Part shown: positions 50,694 to 55,274 of the stretch, piece after piece | Layout of the letters: every line of letters begins with the position of its first letter | Numbering within the stretch: position 1 is the first letter of the stretch | Assembly (NCBI RefSeq): GCF_900107415.1 | Contig: NZ_FNPX01000009.1 | Location: forward strand, 1 to 64,000 | Length of the DNA stretch: 64,000 nucleotides | Source of the DNA: Jannaschia faecimaris | GTDB lineage: Bacteria > Pseudomonadota > Alphaproteobacteria > Rhodobacterales > Rhodobacteraceae | Direction: 5' to 3' | Notes under the pieces: model-generated | Database searches by the model: none | Seen by the model: the letters and a program-made list of their open reading frames with translations, nothing else | What the model was told of the DNA's origin: nothing | Made by a program: the position numbers and the translations under genes

Positions 50694-51026
50694 CTAGCGT
50701 TCGATGACGCCAAGGGAGTCCATGATCGCTTCGAATGCATCGCGATCAGGATCCATATGGGCCGATTTCAACGCGTCGAAGCGCGTGCGGAGGGCTGTCT
50801 TCTCATCGCCCTTGCAGTCATTCCACGGCCGTCCCTGCAGCGCCATTTCGAGGACGTAGTAGGAGATGAAATGCGGTCGCGTGCCGGCGCGGATCAGACG
50901 TGCATAGGCCGCGTCCGTGCCTAGGTCGCGCAACTGCCCCACTGTGGTGATGTTGACGCGGGCGAAGGCCTGCTCTGATGCGGGGCCGAGGTTCCGTAGT
51001 GTCGAAAGGGGGGCATCGTTGTCCAT
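50694..51026 (-). CDS. TfoX/Sxy C-terminal-domain protein
   Basis: 110-residue protein made only of the TfoX C-terminal domain, a helix-hairpin-helix-like fold: LSTLRNLGPASEQAFARVNITTVGQLRDLGTDAAYARL. In gammaproteobacteria the full-length Sxy/TfoX switches on competence genes; single-domain alphaproteobacterial versions are of uncertain role, and some may be merely DNA-binding. The tail HFISYYVLEMALQGRPWNDCKGDEKTALRTRFDAL is typical. The gene is convergent with the exported protein gene and stands at the edge of a 516-base gene-poor region. Confidence 0.85.
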   Translation of the reverse strand: MDNDAPLSTLRNLGPASEQAFARVNITTVGQLRDLGTDAAYARLIRAGTRPHFISYYVLEMALQGRPWNDCKGDEKTALRTRFDALKSAHMDPDRDAFEAIMDSLGVIER

Positions 51027-51254
51027 GCGCGCACTTAGTCAGGTGGCGCGACAGACGTCCAGTGCATTGCAGTTAGATGGAGGCCCAGTCGGTGAAACGG
51101 ATTGGTGCCGGGCGCGGCTTGCGCTTGACGGGGCCCTGACCTGGGACTGGCGGTTGAGTGGGGGTCGAATGAATCACTGGACTTCTCCGGGGAGAGCGAG
51201 GGGGAGAATTGTAGCCTGCACGGAGACAATGATCATCTTTTGTCGGGATTTTGT
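51027..51254. other. gene-poor stretch before the tandem hairpin RNA
   Basis: 228 bases between the TfoX-like gene start and the tandem hairpin element. It should hold the TfoX-like promoter. No protein with recognisable homology, tRNA or clear terminator was found; short open frames on both strands lack family features. Confidence 0.4.
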
Positions 51255-51352
51255 CGGAAATGCGGCCTCGCTCAGGGAGGAGGAGGAACGAGGCCGCTTT
51301 CCGTAACCGGCGGTACAGGTCAGGGAGGAGGAAGACCCGCTGCCGCCCGGTA
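51255..51352 (-). ncRNA. tandem CCTCCTCCC-loop hairpin sRNA, CcsR/'cuckoo'-like
   Basis: Read on the minus strand, two hairpins follow each other. Hairpin 1 (51351-51306) pairs ACCGG-g-CGG with CCG-CCGGT and an inner GGTC with GACC, exposing TTCCTCCTCCCT. Hairpin 2 (51297-51262) pairs GCGGCCTCG with CGAGGCCGC, a perfect 9-bp stem, exposing TTCCTCCTCCTCCCTGAG. The two loops are the same sequence apart from one extra CCT. Exposed CUCCUCCC loops are the mark of the CcsR RNAs of Rhodobacter sphaeroides and the wider 'cuckoo' RNA family in alphaproteobacteria. They usually act on mRNAs, presumably near purine-rich Shine-Dalgarno-like sites. No DUF1127 gene precedes it, unlike the CcsR locus. Exact ends and transcription are unproven. 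Confidence 0.7.
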
Positions 51353-51358
51353 ACTCAC

Positions 51359-51385
51359 ATCTAAGCTGCACTGCGGCGTGGTCAA
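51359..51385 (-). promoter_or_regulatory. candidate promoter of the tandem hairpin RNA
   Basis: On the minus strand TTGACC (51385-51380) and TTAGAT (51364-51359) are 15 bases apart, and hairpin 1 begins about eight bases further. The spacing is short for a sigma-70 promoter. An alternative sigma factor such as RpoH-type, which drives CcsR RNAs, is possible. Weak evidence. Confidence 0.35.
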
Positions 51386-51452
51386 CAATGCAGGCGCAGA
51401 AATCGTTTCGAATTATCCCAGGTTTCTGCGGTGCACTCTTTGCAGGCGAAAC

Positions 51453-51466
51453 TTGACGCGTGTCAA
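51453..51466. promoter_or_regulatory. TTGAC-N4-GTCAA inverted repeat
   Basis: TTGAC and GTCAA separated by GCGT, similar in layout to CRP/FNR-family boxes (TTGAT-N4-ATCAA). It lies upstream of the tandem hairpin RNA on the minus strand, and the same TTGACG can also be a -35 element for a short plus-strand transcript that would end at the 51510-51538 terminator. Confidence 0.4.
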
Positions 51467-51509
51467 ACCGTGTGCCCAATAAAGCGGCAGTACCTCATTT
51501 AGCCCTGTC

Positions 51510-51538
51510 GCGCGCGCCCTGAGGCGCGCGCATTTTTC
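51510..51538 (+). terminator. plus-strand rho-independent terminator without an obvious gene
   Basis: GCGCGCGCC and GGCGCGCGC arms around CTGA, followed by ATTTTTCT on the plus strand. Its T-run is oriented for a rightward transcript, yet the nearest plus-strand protein gene ends at 50621 and has its own terminator. On the minus strand no T-run follows, so it does not serve the RND gene. Confidence 0.75.
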
Positions 51539-51542
51539 TGGC

Positions 51543-54500
51543 CTACTCTGCCGCGCGCAAGGGCGGGTGAGGCAGGTCGGCGTCCGATTTCTCGGCGCTG
51601 GATTCGCCGGTGACCGGCTGGCGGGGCATGGACATGGGCAACTCCGGCTCGGTCGTCGCTTCGTTTTCCTCGGACCAGAGGAGGATGGGCATGCGCACGC
51701 GCTTGGCTTCGCGGCGCAGGGCCCAATCCTCGGCGGCGCGGCTGCCCCGGCCCATGCCCAAGCGGCCCATCAGGTGGCCCAATCCGCGGGCATAGGCGGC
51801 TACCCAGACGCGTGCGGCCAGCATCGCGGGCGTGAAGATCAGGGTCAGGACAGTCGCGATCCCAAGGCCCCAGACGACGGCCGTCGCCAGCTGAATCCAC
51901 CACAGAGCTGTTGGCGAGCCGATCGAATAGCCGCCACCGATGAAATCGAACGACAGGCCGAACATCATCGGGGCCAGGCCCGCCATCGTGGTCAGCGTCG
52001 TCAGAAGAACGGGGCGAATTCGGTCTTCCGCAGTGCGCGTGATCGCCTCCAGTTTGGGCATGTACTTGCTGTAATCCTGGTAGGTATCGATTAGGACAAT
52101 GTTGTTGTTCACCACGATCCCGGCAAGCGCGACGATACCCGTGCCCGTCATGATGATCGAGAAGGCCTGATCCATGACCAGCATCCCTATCAGCACGCCC
52201 GTCGTGGACAGGACGACCGCCAACAGCACCAGCACCGAGTTGTAGATCGAATTGAACTGCGCCAGCAGGATGATGAACATGAGGCCGAGCGCCCCCGCAA
52301 ATGCCTTCATCAGGAATGCACCCGACTCGGCCTGTTCCTCCTGATCGCCGGTCCATTCCCAATGTACGCTTTCGGGAAGGATGTCGGTTTCGTCGAGAAG
52401 GGCGGTGATCGTTTCGATCCGTTCGTTGGCGTTGACCGGAATGACGGTCAGATCACTGCCCTCGGCCTGGGCCGCGGGCACGATGGCCTGAGTTTCGCCG
52501 CCGTCATCGACCAGTTTTACCAGCCCGGGGGCCACGTCCGCCTTTACGTCGAAGAATCGTTCGCCATCGACCCGATCAATCTGCGCCAGACGTGGCACGG
52601 GTTTGCGGGTAATGAAGTTGGCGAGGGGAACCAGACCTTCCTGCGTGCGCACCTTCAAGGTGTCTAGCGTGGACAGCACGCGGTCTTGTTCGGGAAGCCG
52701 GATGCGAATTTCGATTTCATCCTCGGAGCTGTCGATGCGCATCGTGTCGAGCAGGATGCCGCGCGTGACCATCTGCACCATTGCACCGACCACTGCGACG
52801 TTTGCGCCGAAGCGGCCCGCCTTTTCGACGTCCACCTCGATTTCCCAGTCGATGCCGGGCAAGGGCAGGGTGTCTTCGATGTCGATAAGGCCGTCTATCG
52901 TCGCAAACCGCTCGGCCATGTCGGAGGCCGCGGCTTGCAGGTCCTCCCAGTTTTCGCCCCTCAGCCGCAGTTGGACGGGCTTTCCCTGCGCGGGGCCGCG
53001 ATCCTGTGCGGACAGGTCTACCTTGATACCGGGCAGTTCGCGAAGACGCACCAGCAATTGCTCCCCGATCACGTCGCCGTCGAAGGCCGGGTCCACGATG
53101 GACCGGTTTACGGTGAACCCAAAGATGTCGAACCACGGCTCGGGAATGGTGGGGCGGTCTTCCCAAGGGACCATCTCGATCTGGATTTGTCCGATGGTGT
53201 CGCTCGGGCCGCCGGCGGCACCGGGGCCGCCCGACTGCAACCCTCCTTCACCGGCGAAGGCGAAGGCAGACTGGATGCCGGGCGTGGCGAGCACGATAAG
53301 CTCCGCCTGCCGCAACAGGGCGTCCTTCTCCTCCAGCGACAGGTTGCCACGAGCGCGGACGAAGACATTGGCCTGTTCCAGCTCGCTTTCCACGAAGAAT
53401 TCCACGCCGTTATTGTTCGATCCAAAGTACGTGAAGACCGAAACGACACTGAAACCGACCAAGGCGATCGCCACGACCGGACCGATCGGGTTGCCCACGA
53501 TGGCGTTGATCACGTGGCCGAAAATGCTCCGCCGATAGCCGGAGCGGACGCGTTGCTGCTCCCGGTGGAGCGTGACCGACCCCAGCGTGGTCGACAGGGC
53601 ACCGGAAGCGACCAGAAACAGGACCGGACCAAGCAAACCGGCCCCTGGCGTTGCCGCGGGCAGAATGTAGAGAGGGTTCAGGGTTTGCAGGATCGCGACG
53701 ATCATCAGCCACGCCGATGCCGCAGCCAGTGCTGCGCGGACCACCCAGGGGAATGTGCCGCGCAGAAAGTTCGACCCGGTTTCGAACAGGCGCGAGATGC
53801 GGCCCGCGACGCCGCCGAGCACCGGCAGATAGACCAGCGCCACCACGAGCGATGCTGATAGCACGAAGATCAGAGTGACGGGCAGGTTGCTCATGAATTC
53901 GCCCGGCACGCCCGGCCAGAAGAGCATCGGAAGGAAGGCACATAACGTGGTCGCGGTGGAGGATACAACGGGCCAGAACATACGTTTGGCGGCCTCGGTA
54001 TAGGCCTTCATCGGCCCCGACCCTTCGGAGATGCGCTTGGCCGCGTATTCGACCACCACGATTGCGCCATCCACCAACATGCCGACGGCAAGGATCAGGC
54101 CGAACATCACGATGTTGGAGATCGTGATGCCAACGACGGCCATGACCGCGAACGACAACAGGAACGACGTCGGAATTGCGAAGCCCACCAGCAAAGCCGA
54201 GCGGGTGCCAAGTGTGGCGAGGACCACGATCATCACAAGCGCAATCGCCGTCAGGACCGAGCCCTCCAACTGCGACACCATCGACCGTACGGTGCGCGAC
54301 TGGTCGAGTGTGACTGTCACGTCGACTGCCTGGCGCAATTCGTCGGGCCACGAGGCGGTCTCGCGGTCTACTTCGTCGCGAACCTGCTGGGCAGTTTTGA
54401 TGATGTTGAAGCCTTTGCGCTTTACGACTTGCAGCGCCACCGTCGTGTCGCCGTTGTAGCGCGCGGTGCCCTCCCGATCCTCGAACGTCAGATTGATCTG

Positions 54501-55274
54501 CGCAAGATCGCCCAACGTGATGACGCGGTCGCCATCCGTCTTGACCGGCAGGTCATAGACGTCCTGTGGCTCTTCGAAGGAACCGGGGATCTTGACCGGA
54601 AACGCGCCCGACGCCGTCTCGACGGATCCTGTGGCGACCAACAAGTTGTTCTGCGTCACCACGCTCGTCAACTCGCCGGCGGTGACGTTGTAGGATTCCA
54701 GCGCCAGGGGGTCGATAATGACCTCCAGCATTTCGTCGCGGTGCCCGGCCAGGCCTGCTTCGAGGATCGGGGGCATCCCCTCCAGCCGATCCTGAAGGTC
54801 CGACGCCAGCCGCAGCAGCGTGCGTTCCGGTGCCGACCCCGACAGCGAGACGATCAGAATCGGGAATTCCGAGAAGTTGATCTCATCAATGATGTACTGC
54901 TCTGCCCCGTCGGGGAACTCGGCCTCTGCCTGACCCATCTTGTCGCGAACGTCGGCGATGGTCGCGGACTTGTCCCAGCCGAATTCGAATTCGAGAAACA
55001 CGCCGCCAAAGTTTTCGGATGCCGTCGCAATCAGTGATTTCAGGCCGTCCAGTTCCTTGAGCTTGGTCTCCATCGGTTTGACCAGCAGCTTTTCGGAGTC
55101 GGTAGCGCTGATGCCGGGGAAGGGGACGGACACGAATATACCGGGGATGTCGATGTCTGGCTCGCCCTCTTTGGGCAGCGAGATATAGGCGACGGCCCCC
55201 GCGATGATGGACAGGGCCACGAAGGCCATGACCATCCGCGCGCGCTCAGCGGCCCAGTCAATTATGCCGATCAT
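51543..55274 (-). CDS. RND efflux pump permease (AcrB/HAE1-like, long form)
   Basis: 1243-residue inner-membrane RND transporter, about 200 residues longer than AcrB. The N-terminal helix (MIGIIDWAAERARMVMAFVALSIIAGAVAYISL) and pore-domain blocks GIFVSVPFPGISATDSEKLLVKPMETKLKEL are typical. The TM4 proton-relay segment reads GMLVDGAIVVVEYAAKR: the first acidic residue of AcrB's Asp pair is kept, the second position is Gly. Extra length comes from an insertion with additional hydrophobic segments near residues 500-565 and a charged C-terminal extension after the last helix. It probably exports drugs, detergents or heavy-metal-like compounds with the adaptor encoded upstream, in a tripartite pump with an unlinked outer-membrane channel. 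It overlaps the adaptor gene by four bases. Confidence 0.92.
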   Translation of the reverse strand: MIGIIDWAAERARMVMAFVALSIIAGAVAYISLPKEGEPDIDIPGIFVSVPFPGISATDSEKLLVKPMETKLKELDGLKSLIATASENFGGVFLEFEFGWDKSATIADVRDKMGQAEAEFPDGAEQYIIDEINFSEFPILIVSLSGSAPERTLLRLASDLQDRLEGMPPILEAGLAGHRDEMLEVIIDPLALESYNVTAGELTSVVTQNNLLVATGSVETASGAFPVKIPGSFEEPQDVYDLPVKTDGDRVITLGDLAQINLTFEDREGTARYNGDTTVALQVVKRKGFNIIKTAQQVRDEVDRETASWPDELRQAVDVTVTLDQSRTVRSMVSQLEGSVLTAIALVMIVVLATLGTRSALLVGFAIPTSFLLSFAVMAVVGITISNIVMFGLILAVGMLVDGAIVVVEYAAKRISEGSGPMKAYTEAAKRMFWPVVSSTATTLCAFLPMLFWPGVPGEFMSNLPVTLIFVLSASLVVALVYLPVLGGVAGRISRLFETGSNFLRGTFPWVVRAALAAASAWLMIVAILQTLNPLYILPAATPGAGLLGPVLFLVASGALSTTLGSVTLHREQQRVRSGYRRSIFGHVINAIVGNPIGPVVAIALVGFSVVSVFTYFGSNNNGVEFFVESELEQANVFVRARGNLSLEEKDALLRQAELIVLATPGIQSAFAFAGEGGLQSGGPGAAGGPSDTIGQIQIEMVPWEDRPTIPEPWFDIFGFTVNRSIVDPAFDGDVIGEQLLVRLRELPGIKVDLSAQDRGPAQGKPVQLRLRGENWEDLQAAASDMAERFATIDGLIDIEDTLPLPGIDWEIEVDVEKAGRFGANVAVVGAMVQMVTRGILLDTMRIDSSEDEIEIRIRLPEQDRVLSTLDTLKVRTQEGLVPLANFITRKPVPRLAQIDRVDGERFFDVKADVAPGLVKLVDDGGETQAIVPAAQAEGSDLTVIPVNANERIETITALLDETDILPESVHWEWTGDQEEQAESGAFLMKAFAGALGLMFIILLAQFNSIYNSVLVLLAVVLSTTGVLIGMLVMDQAFSIIMTGTGIVALAGIVVNNNIVLIDTYQDYSKYMPKLEAITRTAEDRIRPVLLTTLTTMAGLAPMMFGLSFDFIGGGYSIGSPTALWWIQLATAVVWGLGIATVLTLIFTPAMLAARVWVAAYARGLGHLMGRLGMGRGSRAAEDWALRREAKRVRMPILLWSEENEATTEPELPMSMPRQPVTGESSAEKSDADLPHPPLRAAE

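Follow-up and report, generated by a model that had tools for sequence, protein, structure and literature searches.

Two consecutive minus-strand hairpins that expose almost the same loop in the genome of Jannaschia faecimaris raise the question of whether they form an RNA gene of their own and, if so, how it relates to the known families of anti-Shine-Dalgarno (aSD) RNAs. The element (51255–51351, minus strand) lies in the 64,000-nucleotide stretch of DNA analysed here, hereafter the window. A sequence-only reading had likened it to the CcsR and cuckoo RNAs and had taken it for an orphan member lacking a DUF1127 gene in an otherwise empty region. By title or abstract, the literature searched holds no account of this Jannaschia locus, the principal publications on cuckoo RNAs, on CcsR and on CcaF1 lying outside that scope.

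Hairpin 1 (51306–51351) carries the loop UUCCUCCUCCCU at 51322–51333 and hairpin 2 (51255–51303) the loop CUCCUCCUCCCU at 51274–51285. Both loops contain CCUCCUCCC exactly, and the two stems are unrelated. Folding of the minus strand of 51245–51362 gave a minimum free energy of −54.4 kcal/mol versus −36.79 (sd 3.45) for shuffled sequences (z −5.1; 0/200 shuffles as good), which bears out the near-identical loops on strong, unrelated stems that had been described from the sequence. The plus strand folds more weakly (z −1.86; 9/200 shuffles equal or better). The 9-mer CCTCCTCCC has just two copies in the whole window, namely the two hairpin loops. By themselves the 9-mers are unremarkable, because two or more are found in 19 of 100 shuffled windows; the unusual feature is that they are spaced 48 bases apart inside strong hairpins. 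When the 183 CCTCC sites of the window were scored with CCTCC forced to be unpaired, 130 had at least six enclosing pairs, and among these hairpin 2 ranked first and hairpin 1 came in the fifth row. The putative transcript would extend from about 51351 to 51255 or beyond. Hairpin 2 has a GC-rich stem with compensatory changes and is a possible terminator hairpin. It is mostly followed in Jannaschia by AUUUC or a similar sequence with no long U-run, so termination at this position is unsure, a 3´ end at 51255 is plausible only, and the RNA may instead open a longer mRNA.

The element recurs throughout much of the genus. A blastn search with 161 bases matched 16 of 40 genomes, its own included and all of the same genus, and a covariance model built from these 16 loci (R1) found the same two-hairpin element, with scores of at least 62.8 bits, in 17 of 20 Jannaschia genomes, again counting its own. 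The same score was reached at 7 of the best 80 of at least 507 places confirmed by a TfoX_C protein scan of named genomes, and all 7 are from Jannaschia; J. donghaensis, J. helgolandensis and J. rubra are represented in that scan. Plasmid records gave no match. With G007 (L082) and J. formosa (L159) added to the 16 blastn loci, 18 orthologues were available for comparison. The exact 9-mer is kept in loop 1 of 16 (not L021 and L082) and in loop 2 of 14 (not L013, L017, L023 and L024), and the stems co-vary. Alignment across relatives showed loop sequences and stem pairing to be largely conserved in Jannaschia, and the expectation that the loops would stay constant while the stems change was borne out, with the stem of hairpin 2 partly conserved within the genus.

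The alignment of these 18 sequences (A5) was fitted to the R1 structure and 16 of the 18 had built that model, so that its pair counts are biased towards the structure. On this footing 91.1% of cells are paired versus 83.3% in shuffles, both sides have changed in 12 of 18 pairs versus 6.6, and covariation is 0.419 versus 0.274, none of these values being reached in 500 shuffles. Further pair types are no more numerous than in the shuffles (71/500), and when the pairing partner is slid, no offset comes close to the native one. Helix 2 is paired in 98.6% of cells, with double changes in 7 of its 12 pairs. Helix 1 is paired in just 75.2% on the fitted alignment and its register differs among species; the stem varies from one to the next yet re-forms. 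The arms of hairpin 1 co-evolve: in a test independent of the alignment, in which its 3´ arms were swapped among 16 species, the native mean was −17.4 versus −10.7 kcal/mol for the swapped arms, and 17 of 240 swaps were as good.

Across the orthologues 37 G-U cells are found versus 6 A-C cells, which favours a minus-strand RNA; this bias and the weak plus-strand fold disfavour an RNA from the plus strand. A protein-coding origin is disfavoured by the lengths of the RNA, which range from 96 to 106 nt and do not vary in steps of three. Stop codons would argue against coding only partly, being present in all three RNA-strand frames of 2 of the 18 orthologues and in no frame of 3. The latter, and an open 101-codon TTG frame that spans the RNA in the window (51174–51479), point in the contrary direction. 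Taken at the level of sequence, the hairpins look like a real, conserved small-RNA gene of Jannaschia.

Upstream of hairpin 1, the orthologues share the pattern TTTCTGCnnnTGCAnnnTTGACC-N16-TAnnnT. Judged from this conservation, the window has a predicted sigma70-like core promoter at 51358–51385 on the minus strand, made up of TTGACC (51385–51380), N16 and TAGATG (51363–51358), with a conserved element, TTTCTGCnnnTGCA (51389–51402, minus strand), preceding the −35. A simple scan for consensus promoters came up empty at this locus, while TTGACC-N16-TAnnnT is conserved in the genus. The distance from the start of the −10 to the first loop motif is 28–34 nt in 17 of 18 rows; in the remaining one (L024) the script placed the promoter wrongly and it is visible in the sequence. 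Single rows deviate from the pattern, e.g. L013 in the −35. Most orthologues have a spacer dyad, CTGCnnnGCAG, the window version of which is CCGCAGTGCAG. The upstream motif, searched as TTCTGCnnnTGCAnnnTTGAC with at most one mismatch, occurs 14 times in the 20 genus genomes, 12 of these at this locus, and is absent at that stringency from 5 of the 17 genomes that have the RNA.

Several known RNAs resemble the element in part. The cuckoo family is described as having two to four tandem hairpins and the conserved loop motif CCUCCUCCC (Reinkensmeier and Giegerich, 2015, in the portion conveyed by PMC4504443). The Jannaschia element agrees in hairpin number (two), in the exact motif in both window loops and in stem divergence, the last for hairpin 1 and between the hairpins, the stem of hairpin 2 being partly conserved in the genus. 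It departs from the cuckoo definition as an orphan with two hairpins and a predicted promoter of its own that sits before a small ORF and tfoX. In Rhizobiales, RNAs of the same kind were described as a family present in multiple copies and presumed to act by blocking ribosome-binding sites (PMC3927594, section 2.7). Published accounts of ar14/NfeR1 give it three aSD hairpins and a sigma70 promoter of its own that has a conserved motif upstream, and have it silence mRNAs through the loop motif, as confirmed for some of them (PMC7143759; PMC10746234). The Jannaschia element shares CCUCCUCCC in the loops, may share a promoter of this type, to judge from the conserved pattern and upstream motif, and differs in having two hairpins instead of three. 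The NfeR1 promoter of S. meliloti has a conserved LsrB site, TGCA-N6-GCAT (PMC10746234, in part), which differs from the Jannaschia motif. CcsR1–4 of Rhodobacter sphaeroides, likewise an alphaproteobacterium, have two stem loops, each with an aSD motif (RS0680a; PMC3927594, section 2.7). They are reported to be processed from the transcript of the DUF1127 gene ccaF1, which arises from an RpoHI/RpoHII promoter, and to interact with Hfq (PMC8625941; PMC10253847; PMC8307010), whereas for the Jannaschia element the window has no DUF1127 match.

That a covariance model of a known family would recognize the element held in part, as ar14 and CcsR1 were both matched and both matches fell below their cut-offs. 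The best Rfam match of the window was ar14 (RF02344) with 32.3 bits (cut-off 58.8), followed by CcsR1 (RF02791) with 24.7 bits over the full model (cut-off 65.3) and ar7 with 23.9 bits, also below its cut-off. Among 15 further orthologues at E 0.05, 13 matched ar14 and 2 CcsR1, none above the cut-off; the best of them scored 49.0 bits against ar14 (L019). The DUF1127-linked, CIN1-like array of the same genome is also under the Rfam cut-off.

This array, a DUF1127 gene (PF06568) followed by tandem aSD hairpins, is encoded separately on contig C3. Its last hairpin has a U-rich tail (L001 and L088; about 53.8–54.3 kb). In the 64-kb window tblastn at E 0.01 matched no DUF1127 gene, as the sequence-only reading had noted. 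The two kinds of locus can be told apart across the genus, where R1 listed 41 matches in the 20 genomes, 17 strong and 24 weaker. Among the fetched loci, DUF1127 is present beside all 13 of the weaker ones retrieved (13 of the 24) and none of the 16 strong ones besides our own, and tfoX beside 0/13 and 15/16, respectively. Because DUF1127 accompanies the weaker but not the strong loci, the element is better seen as an orphan of the cuckoo kind than as CcsR proper. R1 matches 228 of 295 genomes family-wide at E ≤ 0.01, and DUF1127 (E ≤ 1e-7) is found at 26 of the 29 best R1 loci outside our own genome (not L049, L051 and L065). The model thus also catches the cuckoo hairpin pair in general, and orthologues are defined by score and context together.

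The proposal of an orphan member of the cuckoo kind, undescribed as far as the literature covered goes, was accordingly upheld, by the two CCUCCUCCC loops on unrelated stems, the presence in 17 of 20 genus genomes, the co-varying stems, the sub-threshold ar14 and CcsR1 scores and the lack of DUF1127; that of a CcsR in the strict sense was not (24.7 versus 65.3 bits, no DUF1127). The comparisons support, within what sequence can tell, a stand-alone aSD RNA. It appears that the aSD-loop RNAs of Rhodobacterales need no tie to DUF1127 and that the genus keeps a separate version with a predicted promoter of its own beside the DUF1127-linked array. Having both kinds in one genus would offer a natural experiment on what DUF1127 proteins contribute to such RNAs.

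The surroundings are less empty than had been supposed. Between the RNA and the gene for a TfoX_C-domain protein of 110 aa (50694–51026, minus strand; PF04994, E 1.1e-20) lies a conserved 34-codon ORF (51073–51177, minus strand) with a GTG start, the sequence VIHSTPTQPPVPGQGPVKRKPRPAPIRFTDWASI and the C-terminus RFTDWASI-stop. On the other side is an RND efflux permease gene (51543–55274, minus strand; best NCBIfam models below their cut-offs), so that permease, RNA, small ORF and TfoX_C gene follow one another on one strand. In 16 loci of about 3 kb each, the permease is present in 9, the TfoX_C gene in 15 (not L023) and the small ORF, adjoining the RNA, in 15 (not L014), as well as in L101 and L159. 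Relatives of the small ORF precede tfoX in other genera without an aSD motif, and 34 of 295 family genomes match it at E ≤ 0.01, its own included, the weakest perhaps by chance. It has no Pfam or NCBIfam match, and from its sequence we regard it as a candidate for a family of small proteins that lacks annotation and is conserved next to tfoX in Jannaschia as well as in other Rhodobacterales; the locus draws attention to this family in its own right. One genome (G179) has four small-ORF matches, three of them within about 500 bases. A second promoter-like stretch was spotted by eye ahead of the small ORF (51178–51254, minus strand), reading GTTTCC ... TAYAAT in several Jannaschia loci and TTGTCTCC ... 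TACAAT in the window.

Traces of the element outside the genus are few. Among the other 73 of the best 80 of at least 507 TfoX_C loci, R1 matched at E ≤ 0.1 solely in Thalassobacter stenotrophicus (L142; 27.2 bits). The RNA predicted there (2321–2433) has one CCUCCUCCC loop, then a terminator-like stem, GCGGCUCC...GGAGCCGC, and AUUUUU, and ends about 55–60 bases ahead of tfoX. This one case suggests that hairpin 2 may have had its origin in a terminator and that the element may predate the genus. Before tfoX in other genera, terminator-like hairpins are found in 6 of 73 loci versus 0–2 in ten rounds of shuffling, and aSD-like loops in 6 of 73 versus 0–4, a small excess. A further idea, that the CATTTC following hairpin 2 belongs to a tandem ATTTCCGCC repeat common to tfoX loci of other genera, was rejected, as just one of the 73 loci from outside Jannaschia has such a repeat (shuffled mean 0.2).

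The analysis itself shows the sequence with its predicted fold and strand bias, the conservation of both RNA and promoter, and the neighbouring genes; transcription, RNA ends, a role of Hfq, targets and the condition of expression we infer. On balance, the element is probably a stand-alone sRNA gene that acts in trans by blocking ribosome-binding sites. Its dedicated sigma70-type promoter (TTGACC-N16-TAnnnT) would fire a minus-strand RNA of about 100 nt starting just ahead of hairpin 1, in which the stems would merely display two single-stranded CCUCCUCCC loops. These would pair with purine-rich, GGGAGGAGG-like ribosome-binding sites of several mRNAs, probably assisted by Hfq, and block translation as with NfeR1 (ar14). 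With its own promoter, the same output could be used under conditions other than those firing the DUF1127-linked array. As for possible targets, at least one GGGAGGAGG site 2–10 bases ahead of an ATG is found in each of the 20 genus genomes. Our own genome has 7 such sites, two of which open long frames, one in L212 and the other iolD-like (TIGR04377, 662.2 bits against a cut-off of 715, with the frame truncated at the end of the fetched locus).

The main rival, to which we assign a clearly smaller though still real chance, is that the hairpins are a cis-acting 5´ leader. They would open the mRNA of the small ORF and tfoX, their loops competing for the downstream ribosome-binding site or setting mRNA stability, and the short RNA would perhaps be a by-product. 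What keeps this idea alive is that RNA, small ORF and tfoX share strand and order, that the terminator signal past hairpin 2 is weak in Jannaschia, and that the three Jannaschia genomes lacking the RNA lack a tfoX-like gene (E 1e-10) as well, a joint absence that hints at a link in cis. The RNA stands directly before tfoX in L014 (G005), which has no small ORF, and a related RNA with one aSD loop does so in T. stenotrophicus. A leader is disfavoured by other genera, in which the small ORF and tfoX accompany each other but no aSD motif is present, and, conversely, by the RNA with the small ORF but no tfoX match in the fetched locus of G009 (L023/L077). Visual inspection shows an RNA–ORF spacer of variable length and, at the small ORF, mostly GGAG-like ribosome-binding sites with no long match to the loops. 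In T. stenotrophicus, the second stem followed by AUUUUU would end the RNA before tfoX.

A bolder and rather improbable reading joins the RNA to the 34-codon protein in a new two-part module paralleling CcsR–CcaF1. The small, basic, proline-rich protein (KRKPRP...RFTDWASI) would replace the DUF1127 protein as RNA-binding partner or regulated output, the module would control the adjacent TfoX_C protein, and the RNA would come from the common stock of aSD hairpins and have gained its own promoter.

We consider it very unlikely that the RNA derives from the 3´ UTR of the upstream permease mRNA; it is on the same strand and, in the window, starts some 190 bases past the permease stop codon, but the permease accompanies just 9 of the 16 loci and a conserved promoter pattern intervenes. 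Slightly less credible still is CcsR proper, i.e. an RNA that RNase E would cut from the 3´ UTR of a DUF1127 (ccaF1-like) mRNA under RpoH control. The loop, the two-hairpin unit and the 24.7 bits over the full CcsR1 model would suit it; the promoter pattern of its own, the DUF1127 gene matched on contig C3 with such an array instead of in the window, and a score under the 65.3-bit cut-off do not, though the CIN1-like array of the same genome is under the cut-off too. Chance palindromes or a functionless repetitive extragenic element are scarcely credible. Two such 9-mers alone are not rare (19/100 shuffles), but the conservation of position and promoter, the covariation in the stems and the strand bias stand against both.

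Just behind the permease gene, the plus strand of 51467–51545 contains a terminator-like hairpin (51510–51531) and weakly matches mmgR/suhB (12.5 bits; cut-off 41, E 8.2); this stretch is perhaps a plus-strand RNA, or else a chance resemblance.
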